DNA of 64,000 nucleotides from the NCBI RefSeq assembly GCF_041154675.1, contig NZ_AP031322.1, positions 1,612,001-1,676,000 of the forward strand. The letters run 5' to 3'. The translations under genes and the position numbers were made by a program. A model generated the notes under the pieces. The model had not been told where the DNA came from. It ran no database searches and was given only the letters and a program-made list of their open reading frames with translations. The DNA is from Sulfurisphaera javensis. GTDB lineage: Archaea > Thermoproteota > Thermoprotei_A > Sulfolobales > Sulfolobaceae. Of this stretch, positions 16,201 through 18,925 are shown one piece after another. How positions within the stretch are numbered: the stretch's first letter is position 1; each line of letters starts with the position of its first letter.

Positions 16201-16764
16201 ATGACAAAAGTTATTAAAAGAACTCAAGAAGAGGAAGAATATTTACCAGATAAAATATATAATTCATTAATAAGAGCAGGGGCATCTGATGAAGTTGCTA
16301 AAGAAATTGTTAATGAAATAAATGAAAAGATTAAAAATAGAGATAAAATTTCAACTGATGAGATAAGAAGATACGTATTAACTAGGCTCTCACAATTAGA
16401 ACCAGAGGCTGCAGATGCTTGGCAATTTTTTGATAGAGTTTTCAAAGGTAGAATAACTTTCTTAGATGGCAAGGCCATTGTAGTTGATAAGGGCAAGCTT
16501 TACTTAGGAAGGTCTGTTAAGGATTTTGGTCCTCATCTAGTTAATTCTGAACAAGTTAAAGAGATCTTAGACGAGTTAAAGGAAGATATGGAATATGGTT
16601 TAAGTCCTAAAGTAATAAATGCAAGATTGTATGCTCTTTTCATGGGTGTATTACATGATAAGAGAATGAATGTAGAAGAGAAAGAGAAGTCAATTGAGTT
16701 AATTAATGAATTTAGAAAATCTTTGGGATGGAAACCATATGAGTTAAAAGAACCTCTTGAATGA
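16201..16764 (+). CDS. ATP-cone domain protein
   Basis: Residues 1-90 form an ATP-cone: [20 protein letters not shown], then [15 protein letters not shown] and [13 protein letters not shown]. This nucleotide-binding regulatory domain is best known from ribonucleotide reductases and from NrdR. The rest (about 100 residues) is a helical domain I do not recognise; no zinc finger like that of NrdR is present. It may act as a free-standing (d)ATP sensor. The TTG at 16195 would also fit the frame, but the ATG at 16201 is preferred. Its last 21 bases overlap the convergent AAA ATPase gene. Confidence 0.75.
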
Positions 16765-18033
16765 TTCTAAAAGCCATTTCCATGTTTTTAACACAGGGAT
16801 TTTTTTACCATTAATTTCAATCTCTTTCTCTTCATCAAAAGTTAAAATATAAACCTTAATATCCTTTTTTCTTTCTAATATTTCCTTAATTCCTTTTATC
16901 TCTCTTTCCATATCTTGCAAGGAATATGTGACTTGATAAGCTTCTTTAACTTCATTATCTTTAATAACAAAATCCACTTCTCCTCTTTTACCGCGATAAT
17001 AGAAAATTTTGTTAATACCATATCTGCGTAACAACTCTATGAACACCACGTTTTCTAACAAAGAACCTAAACTCTCATTTAACCTAAATCCTATTACGTT
17101 AGCTAAACCCTGGTCAATCGAATACACTTTCTTCTCAGCCTTTACCATTTCTGAAAGTTTAGAATTTAATGGATTAACAAAGTAAATGAGAAAGGAAGAA
17201 GTTAAACACTCAGTATATTTTAATACATTCTTTATTGGTATATTTAGTGACCTAGATATTTTTCTGAATGATATTCTATTCCCTATTTGAGATAGATAAA
17301 AGAGAGAAAGTGTTCTAACCTCATGTACGTTTTTAATTTTACATCTTTCTATGACGTCTTTAGATATAATGTCTTCATAGAGGTTAACTAAGACTTTTTC
17401 TTTTAACTCAGAGAGAGCAACTAAAGGAAATCCACCTAATTTCACAAACTCCAAAAATAAAGACTTGATTATCGGCTCTTTAGCTAAAATATCAAGATCA
17501 TTTTTTATTTCTAGTTTCTTAAATTCTAAAAACTCCTTAAATGAAAGAGGGTATACAATGAAAGATAGATGTCTACCAGAAAGAGATTCACTAATATTCA
17601 TCTTCACAGAACCTGAAACAATTACATAAGCTTCTTTTCTGTCAATTAAGGACCTTACAAACCCTTCCCAATTCTCAACCTTTTGAACCTCATCTAGAAA
17701 TATATAAGTTCTTCCTTCTTTTCTTTTAATTTCTTTATAAATTTCATAAAGCTGAAATAAGTCATTTCCATTTCTAATATTAAATCTAGGATCTTCAAAA
17801 TTGATTATTAAAGTGTTGAAAGGATCAACCCCGTTATTAATCAGCTTTTTTACTACTTGATTAATTATGGTAGATTTACCACATCTCTTAACCCCAGTAA
17901 CATCTATTGCTAAACCAATATCCATCATTTGAAGCAAGGAATTTACATACTCATCTCTAATTATTCCAGTATATTGTTCCTTATACCAAAAATTCCAGTC
18001 TATTAATGCTTTAAGTACTGTTTCTCTGTCCAT
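16744..18033 (-). CDS. Archaeal AAA ATPase with DUF4143-type C-terminal domain
   Basis: The N-terminal domain is an AAA_14 P-loop ATPase with Walker [10 protein letters not shown] (residues 47-55), Walker B YIFLDEVQ (110-117) and a sensor region [10 protein letters not shown]. The C-terminal 200 residues resemble DUF4143, with [12 protein letters not shown] and a later AYQVTYS; this looks like a PD-(D/E)XK-type fold with E-D...Q residues. Such ATPases are abundant in archaea, often near mobile or defence loci, and their job is not settled. The ATG at 18033 fits a TATA-like box at 18057-18065 (reverse CTTTTATTT, 28 bases upstream), so I prefer it over the upstream in-frame codon at 18078. A striking pair of dyads lies just upstream. 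Confidence 0.88.
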
Positions 18034-18066
18034 TAAGTGTTTAGTACAATAAGCAAAAATAAAAGT

Positions 18067-18123
18067 GATTCTTATCAAGAATCAAAAATACGTATTTTTG
18101 ATTCTTATTGGGAATCAAAAATA
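18067..18123. promoter_or_regulatory. Tandem dyad repeats with a perfect 30-base palindrome upstream of the AAA ATPase
   Basis: Two 24-base units (18067-18090 and 18100-18123) differ at only three positions and start 33 bases apart, about three helical turns. Each unit contains its own dyad, GATTC-N7-GAATC. The right half of unit 1 and the left half of unit 2 together make a perfect palindrome of 30 bases (18077-18106, centre TACGTA). The block lies directly upstream of the TATA-like box of the ATPase gene and about 75 bases before the box of the divergent wHTH gene. It looks like a paired operator. Confidence 0.7.
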
Positions 18124-18226: not shown

Positions 18227-18508
18227 GTGAATGTTATTCAATTAGCAATACTAACAATCCTTTCGGAGGAAGAGAGAAGCGTTAATGAGCTAAGAGAATA
18301 CTTAGGCTTAGATAAAAAGAAATTAGTGAAGAATATAAGGACCTTAGAAAAGAAAGGATATATAACTAGAAAAACTTATCTAGGAGAAGGAGATGTTATC
18401 TTTGGAATAACAGATGAAGGAATGGAAGAATTATACAAGTATTATATGTTTCTAAGAGATCTTATAAAAGAAATGGAGATCTCAGTATGTACTAAATTTG
18501 ATTGCTAA
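18227..18508 (+). CDS. Small winged-helix transcriptional regulator
   Basis: This 93-residue protein has a winged helix over residues 3-70: AILTILSEEERSVNELREYL, then recognition helix KKKLVKNIRTLEKKGYI and a wing ending in FGITDEGMEEL. A short dimerising helix and two cysteines follow at the C-terminus. The GTG start is supported by a TATA-like box (TTTTTATA, 18198-18206) 24-28 bases upstream. It is divergent from the AAA ATPase gene with the dyad block in between, so it is a natural candidate to bind that block. The last 4 bases overlap the broken DUF3211 gene. Confidence 0.8.
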   Translation: MNVIQLAILTILSEEERSVNELREYLGLDKKKLVKNIRTLEKKGYITRKTYLGEGDVIFGITDEGMEELYKYYMFLRDLIKEMEISVCTKFDC

Positions 18509-18925
18509 ACTTTTTTCTTTATTCTTTCAAGTCTTATAATTTCATCAAAATTCGCTATGAAATCCCTCACTCTCCTTTTTATACTAATACTGTATAAAAT
18601 GTCTAATGGTAGCGTCAAGTTTAAGTAGATTCTAATACTCTTATTTTCATTAATAAATCTTATTATACCGTCTCTATGCTTTGCAAAATCTGGAATAATA
18701 AAAACGTAATTTATCTTATTTCCAGAAACATATATGTACCTCAAGTACAAGATTATACGGAATAAAGAACCCTTTCAATGGGATATATGCTGTGAATTTT
18801 CTTTTCTCTTTATCAAACTTAACTTCACCTTTAAAAATATTAGCGAAAACAAAGTCAGGATCAGAAAAGAGTGATTTAAATACTTCATCTTCCATCTCAT
18901 GATTAATTATAAACTCTTCCTCCAT
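18505..18925 (-). pseudogene. DUF3211 (STK_08120-like, SRPBCC fold) gene with a frameshift
   Basis: Two overlapping frames together give one protein of about 140 residues that matches the intact 136-residue DUF3211 protein at 31433-31843. The N-terminal part (from 18925) runs to IPYNLVLE and then hits a stop at 18716. The C-terminal part continues in the next frame with YIYVSGNKINYV and ends in [13 protein letters not shown], nearly identical to the [13 protein letters not shown] end of the intact copy. The frame change lies near 18738-18748 and needs one base to be skipped, for example in the GAGG of the reverse strand. It may be a true pseudogene, a sequencing error or, less likely, programmed shifting. 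A normal ATG and promoter remain. Confidence 0.75.

Follow-up and report, generated by a model that had tools for sequence, protein, structure and literature searches.

A tandem dyad block at the promoter of a DUF4143 ATPase gene as its probable autoregulatory operator

The window analysed here, a stretch of 64,000 nucleotides that forms part (1,612,001 to 1,676,000) of a 2.57-Mb single-contig genome, contains a block of two dyads between two divergent genes, and the question it raises is to which of the two genes the block belongs and which protein reads it. One gene encodes a DUF4143 ATPase and the other, as the sequence-only reading had recognised, a small winged helix-turn-helix (wHTH) protein. 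The coordinates of these features are collected in Table 1. The two units of the block (18066 to 18090 and 18099 to 18123) lie 33 bp apart and are identical at 22 of 25 positions. Their inner half-sites and the spacer form the only perfect palindrome of at least 20 bases in the window, while the longest palindrome in 60 dinucleotide shuffles of the window has 22 bases. This palindrome arises in part because the dyads stand in tandem, so that the right half of one meets the left half of the next; beyond this effect, the spacer between the inner half-sites is symmetric as well. The motif GATTC-N7-GAATC is found at three sites in the whole genome, two of which are the dyads of the block, and its mean count per dinucleotide shuffle of the window is 0.07. 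The earlier claim is confirmed: the paired dyads and the 30-base palindrome exist and greatly exceed what chance would give. The block was also correctly placed directly upstream of the TATA position of the ATPase gene, as the second dyad abuts a T/A-rich stretch and the ATG lies at 18033; judging from its position and from the comparison of orthologues, this stretch would be the TATA box.

Table 1. Positions in the window of the dyad block and of the genes on either side of it
Feature	Position	Strand	Remarks
ATPase gene	16744..18033	-	429 aa; AAA_14, winged helix and DUF4143 (PD-(D/E)XK-like); PADLOC PDC-S01
Codons of the internal wHTH domain	17119..17328	-	residues 236-305; AlphaFold model
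Codons of the recognition helix	17197..17235	-	residues 267-279; candidate specificity residues 268 and 271; model and covariation
T/A-rich stretch CTTTTATTTTTG	18054..18065	-	place of the putative ATPase TATA box; abuts the proximal dyad
ATPase-proximal dyad TGATTC-N7-GAATCA	18066..18084	.	starts 51 bases upstream of the ATPase ATG
Perfect 30-base palindrome	18077..18106	.	inner half-sites and symmetric TACGTA spacer
ATPase-distal dyad TGATTC-N7-GAATCA	18099..18117	.	starts 84 bases upstream of the ATPase ATG
Divergent wHTH gene	18227..18508	+	93 aa; outside the unit

Ownership of the block was assessed in 31 genomes of the family Sulfolobaceae, Metallosphaera among them. Orthologues of the wHTH protein are present in 26 other genomes of the family (27 loci with an E value below 1e-14, its own included), and none of these 26 orthologues has such a dyad, either in the 310 bases around the start codon or in the 3.2-kb locus. 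Orthologues of the ATPase, with 52 to 100% identity, occur in 16 genomes, and all 16 keep at least one dyad. Thirteen of them have an intact 5' end; of these, nine carry two or three exact dyads and four carry one exact and one degenerate dyad. Two of the three broken orthologues retain one or two exact dyads and the third, in genome G009, retains an imperfect one recognised by eye. Since the dyads are absent at the 26 wHTH orthologues and kept at the 16 ATPase orthologues, the block belongs to the ATPase, and the wHTH gene, being conserved without dyads, is not part of the unit. A search for the unit across genomes, DUF4143 ATPase promoters included, had been proposed from the sequence, and its outcome makes the unit a feature of the ATPase family. 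Genome G004 has the ATPase and the dyads with no match to the wHTH protein; genome G029 encodes the wHTH protein at 82% identity, with neither a close ATPase nor such a dyad anywhere in the genome; and in the 14 other genomes that hold both genes, these lie on separate contigs or are separated by about 65 kb or more. The gene adjoins the block, is divergent and encodes a small wHTH protein, which the sequence-only reading deemed the natural ligand; on the distribution of dyads at its orthologues, the two genomes that show each component without the other, and the unlinked genes elsewhere, we rejected it as ligand and deem it exceedingly unlikely that this protein recognises the block and regulates the ATPase, all the more so as the dyads covary with the ATPase's own helix (see below). 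Of the dedicated switch then proposed for the DUF4143 ATPase, a dedicated and probably cooperative site conserved at the ATPases stands, and the wHTH protein as its ligand does not. A conserved block made of the ATPase and its neighbours in the window was likewise considered and rejected: the ATP-cone gene is found in only two of four genomes of the genus, namely the window's own genome and a second in which a long distance separates it from the ATPase. Next to the wHTH gene, two overlapping open reading frames in different frames (18505 to 18925, minus strand) match the N- and C-terminal halves of PF11485 (STK_08120-like), so that this gene looks frameshifted, by mutation or by sequencing error.

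According to Pfam, the ATPase consists of AAA_14 plus DUF4143, and the PADLOC profile PDLC04787 (PDC-S01) matches its residues 22 to 423 with an E value of 1.5e-105. By this match over the whole protein and by the fusion of an ATPase with a PD-(D/E)XK-like domain, it fits the candidate defence family PDC-S01; both the family models and the ATPase plus PD-(D/E)XK layout agree with the passages on PDC-S01 in PMC12988326. The same passages rank PDC-S01 fourth in frequency among the candidate defence genes of prokaryotes, count 9,986 copies in archaea and 29,494 in bacteria, and present its defence activity as lacking experimental validation (PMC12988326). The AlphaFold model of the ATPase (pLDDT 93) comprises the core, the winged helix with its recognition helix, and a C-terminal alpha/beta domain (residues 306 to 420), which we call PD-(D/E)XK after those passages of PMC12988326 and not by a fold search of that domain. 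Among solved folds, STAND proteins come closest, with Z scores of about 15 to 17; they include 2qen (Z 16.9), SSO1545 (2fna, Z 16.4), chains of CED-4 (Z 15.3 to 16.5) and plant NLRs, and the matches run from about residues 7-22 to about residues 315-372 of the model. What the fold searches returned is mainly the ATPase core, and they bear little on the C-terminal domain. With a nucleotide-binding core and a winged helix in the STAND arrangement, the modelled protein qualifies as STAND-type, and its AAA+-wHTH fold also matches Orc1/Cdc6 (2qby). The ATPase profile had no match at an E value of 0.01 among the sequences of solved structures, and the four proteins searched against PHROGs matched no family there.

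Tandem dyads turned out to be a general property of DUF4143-ATPase promoters in the Sulfolobaceae. We scanned promoters in an unsupervised manner for four mutually similar half-sites at any spacing from 26 to 41, with no preset motif. The count is based on 80 promoters, in the 31 genomes, from the 90 loci L034 to L123, from which L121 (no alignment) and L047, L048, L049, L055, L067, L108, L120, L122 and L123 (broken, short or with an unclear start) were left out. The best tandem-dyad spacing is 33 or 34 in 65 of the 80 promoters versus 8 of 109 control promoters, leaving 15 family promoters without it; a scan score of at least 36 is reached by 40 of the 80 and by 0 of the 109 controls; and 53 of the 80 combine a spacing of 32 to 34 with a score of at least 33, a combination seen in 0 of 800 composition-matched shuffles. 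Several promoters, L051, L059, L060, L073, L074 and L076 among them, score at the level of the shuffles, in part because their start codons are uncertain.

The half-site itself varies by lineage (TTGACTC, TTTGTCA, CTGTCAA, TGTTTTA, TTATGCA, ATCAGTA, TGGAGTA and others), and the dyad sequence tracks the ATPase tree, every lineage of ATPases having a dyad of its own; the genome of the window, inspected by eye, holds six DUF4143 genes with six different dyads. The pattern TTTTGAYTCN7GARTCA has 15 listed places in the 31 genomes, of which 14 are promoters of the ATPase orthologues and one is a promoter relic (G013:C1:1900282), where one isolated dyad is followed by sequence of the ATPase type and lies beside transposase-like DNA, while the reversed control pattern is found nowhere in the 31 genomes. 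Two further lineage motifs occur at ATPase promoters in 9 of 9 and 3 of 3 places. A wider regulon was considered and rejected, as the three motifs have no other sites in the 31 genomes, the relic aside. Relative to the start codon, the dyad centres lie mostly at -74 and -41 or at -42 and -9, which puts the T/A-rich TATA position either just past the second dyad or between the dyads. Two loci were observed in addition. At L043 (1387 to 1500), three exact dyads in 33-bp steps precede a single ATPase in tandem, as if the array gained and lost whole units. In genome G013 (L067, L157), which also holds the orphan relic, about 4.5 kb separates the two parts of a broken ATPase orthologue.

Beyond the Sulfolobaceae, the enrichment of dyads in other archaea and bacteria is weaker but clear. 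From the 112 loci L164 to L275, 14 were left out because they were duplicates, weak or located at the end of a contig. The 98 scanned include 97 distinct homologues, which come from viral contigs, bacteria and other archaea, except that L164 and L165 repeat Sulfolobaceae loci already counted. The best spacing is 32 to 34 in 46 of these 97, against a background of 35 of 424 promoters of neighbouring genes, whose G+C content is higher, and roughly 10% of shuffles; 32 of the 97 combine this spacing with a score of at least 33, compared with 0.3% of 970 shuffles. When one random member was drawn from each of the 33 single-linkage clusters at 45% identity, which corrects for relatedness only in part, a spacing of 32 to 34 was found in 20.2 of 33 on average, 12.7 of them with a score of at least 33. 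Among the 25 loci of other Thermoproteota, four have a score of at least 33 and a spacing of 32 to 34. In a prospective test on eight plasmid homologues, the spacing was 32 to 33 in two (L278 and L280), 39 to 40 in three and 23 in one, with nothing clear in two, and these mixed spacings make the 33-bp rule weaker in bacteria. Other spacings, of about 23 and about 40 bp, recur outside the family (L226, L206, L234, L245, L256 and L282; L272, L271, L251, L283 and L285), including in bacteria. The homologue L282, on the Treponema saccharophilum plasmid pTS1, lies within a defence system, flanked by the type I restriction gene hsdR on one side and a gene for a DNA methyltransferase on the other.

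For the family tree and the covariation analysis we used the 54 promoters with a score of at least 33 and a spacing of 32 to 34, so that promoters without clear dyads are absent from both. When operator similarity was compared with sliding windows along the 54 ATPases, the best agreement was at residues 260 to 279 (r 0.425; partial 0.33 given whole-protein identity), a segment that spans the recognition helix of the model; a second peak, based on fewer pairs, lies at residues 44 to 75 (partial 0.29), and for pairs below 45% identity covariation is weak everywhere and near vanishing (0.105). In permutations, the value of the wHTH domain was reached in 0 of 500 given the AAA domain and in 0 of 500 given the C-terminal domain, while given the wHTH domain the values of the AAA and C-terminal domains were reached in 168 and 380 of 500, i.e., these domains add nothing. 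This pattern suggests that each such ATPase may read its own copy of the site through a built-in DNA-reading helix.

Natural changes of the operator point to individual residues. In the close clade, base 3 of the half-site is T with Leu271 and C with Gln271 or Glu271, and base 4 is C with Thr268 and T with Arg268 or Lys268. Five of 407 ungapped columns separate the T and C groups, column 268 among them, and column 271 alone of the 407 has a single residue throughout the T group and none in common with the C group. Within one genus the ATPase locus has been inherited in place, with 84% DNA identity over 4 kb between genomes G014 and G015; in G014 all four half-sites read GATCC and not GACTC, and the switch is accompanied by changes at residues 268 and 271. 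Between the two genomes, residues 266 to 277 are the most diverged 12-residue window (6 of 12 changed, tied among 4 of 411), and compared with G017 the same segment of G014 is among the top 2 of 411. It shows no change in three pairs whose operator is unchanged, and three differences in 12 in the more distant pairs L036/L038 and L034/L035, which share the same base-3 state. The three broken orthologues, excluded from the derivation, all fit the code: G013 has GATCC with Thr268/Leu271, G027 has GACTC with Arg268/Glu271, and G009 has GACTC/GACTT with Arg268/Gln271. The switch in G013 is probably shared with G014 by descent, so that the held-out set does not amount to three independent events, and the residue-base code as a whole rests on two to four lineages, not on 16 independent events. 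Mixed half-sites, at L043, in the outer dyad of L046 and at one half-site in G013, are exceptions.

Taken together, we consider it likely that the block is an autoregulatory operator of the DUF4143 ATPase (PDC-S01, STAND-type), read by the internal wHTH of the ATPase itself, with the tandem dyads sitting at the promoter of the very gene that encodes their putative binder. The winged helix-turn-helix would read the half-site TGATTC, with one ATPase dimer per dyad, and the two dimers, 33 bp or about three turns apart, would bind cooperatively on the same face of the DNA beside the TATA box and BRE region or, in other lineages, around the TATA. The bound ATPase would most likely repress its own gene until its state changes, which would keep a potentially dangerous effector low and each paralogue under its own control; with lineage-specific half-sites, paralogues in one genome would not cross-talk. 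The dyads, their association with the ATPase family, their spacing and lineage specificity, the lack of other sites for three motifs and the covariation are direct results; that the ATPase binds, as dimer or tetramer, that it represses and does not activate, and that an immune signal releases it are what we infer from these patterns.

Other readings accept the dyads and differ in what acts on them. The ATPase could bind and yet activate or maintain its own transcription, the upstream class of dyads being an activator site: in many lineages the dyads are centred near -74 and -41, and both lie upstream of the TATA position, in a region that archaeal activators can occupy. We hold this to be unlikely, as in other lineages one dyad lies at about -9, in the region of TATA and start, which fits repression, and as the expected BRE adjoins the -41 dyad or is overlapped by it. 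That the ATPase binds is deduced from sequence comparisons, which leaves room for an unlinked regulator that diverges in parallel and reads the dyads. However, a separate regulator would be needed in each of many lineages, the covariation falls on the ATPase's own recognition helix, where the three held-out cases fit, and the three motifs occur nowhere else in the 31 genomes, all of which renders such a regulator quite improbable.

The dyads might instead serve recombination, transposition or replication of a mobile ATPase gene, whose position differs between genera, whose broken copies are common, whose homologues occur on plasmids and viral contigs, and whose product shares a fold with Orc1/Cdc6. 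Their fixed distance from start codon and TATA, their place on the upstream side (promoter regions being what was scanned) and the inheritance of the locus in place within one genus make a mobility site very improbable. As palindromes can fold, a transcribed RNA structure, attenuator or riboswitch is a further candidate, but the dyads at -74 and -41 are upstream of the TATA position and hence outside a leaderless transcript, and we rate the chances of this explanation as close to nil. Returning to the autoregulatory operator, we tentatively offer a broader possibility: PDC-S01 proteins may be STAND ATPases of an NLR-like type that use the winged helix of their core to recognise specific DNA sequences, with private tandem operators that coevolve with the recognition helix and insulate paralogues, and the promoter-bound oligomer may be a resting state; an invader that released it would at once lift repression of the gene and set the effector free. 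Against a DNA-reading winged helix in the ATPase, no such role is known, to our knowledge, for the winged helix of STAND proteins such as CED-4 and the NLRs.

PDC-S01 is a very widespread suspected antivirus family with no mechanism described in the open literature searched, and in the open-licence PMC literature, bioRxiv aside, we found no report of promoter dyads at DUF4143, COG1373 or PDC-S01 genes. The promoter signature offers a testable mechanism, in which a STAND ATPase would read DNA by its winged helix and control itself, and the natural operator switches already suggest a two-residue/two-base code. The operator sequence also provides a means to annotate and sort PDC-S01 members, and a natural set of putative orthogonal archaeal operator-regulator pairs is on offer.

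A tandem operator bound by the protein that its own gene encodes has precedents, among them C proteins and toxin-antitoxin modules. C proteins of type II restriction-modification systems have tandem dyads with lineage-specific sites at the promoter of their own binder's gene and are HTH proteins of about 80 amino acids without ATPase or nuclease-fold domains; the system described here resembles them in the placement of its dyads and adds an ATPase and a nuclease-fold domain. Orc1/Cdc6 initiators have dyads near their own genes and are alike in joining AAA+ to a winged helix, as the match to 2qby reflects, whereas the ATPases have one site per gene at a fixed distance from the start, a PD-(D/E)XK-like domain and many paralogues, each with its own motif. 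SSO1545, CED-4, the plant NLRs and MalT/IniR are similar in having a nucleotide-binding core with a winged helix. In MalT the DNA reader is a separate C-terminal domain, and this is also the case, according to the part of PMC5760070 that describes it, in the STAND-like transcription regulator IniR; unlike in both, the core winged helix of the ATPase appears to be what reads DNA. According to the part of PMC12255303 concerned with it, RptR of a defence island represses its own promoter via repeated palindromes; it is a small separate regulator with 9-bp repeats, whereas here the putative reader is the effector ATPase and the spacing is 33 bp. The passages on PDC-S01 in PMC12988326 contain no account of regulation, to which our analysis adds the promoter dyads and a putative self-reading helix. 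What appears to be new, as judged from these comparisons, is that a STAND-type effector would itself be the reader, by the winged helix of its core, and that one of the commonest suspected defence families would follow the rule throughout.
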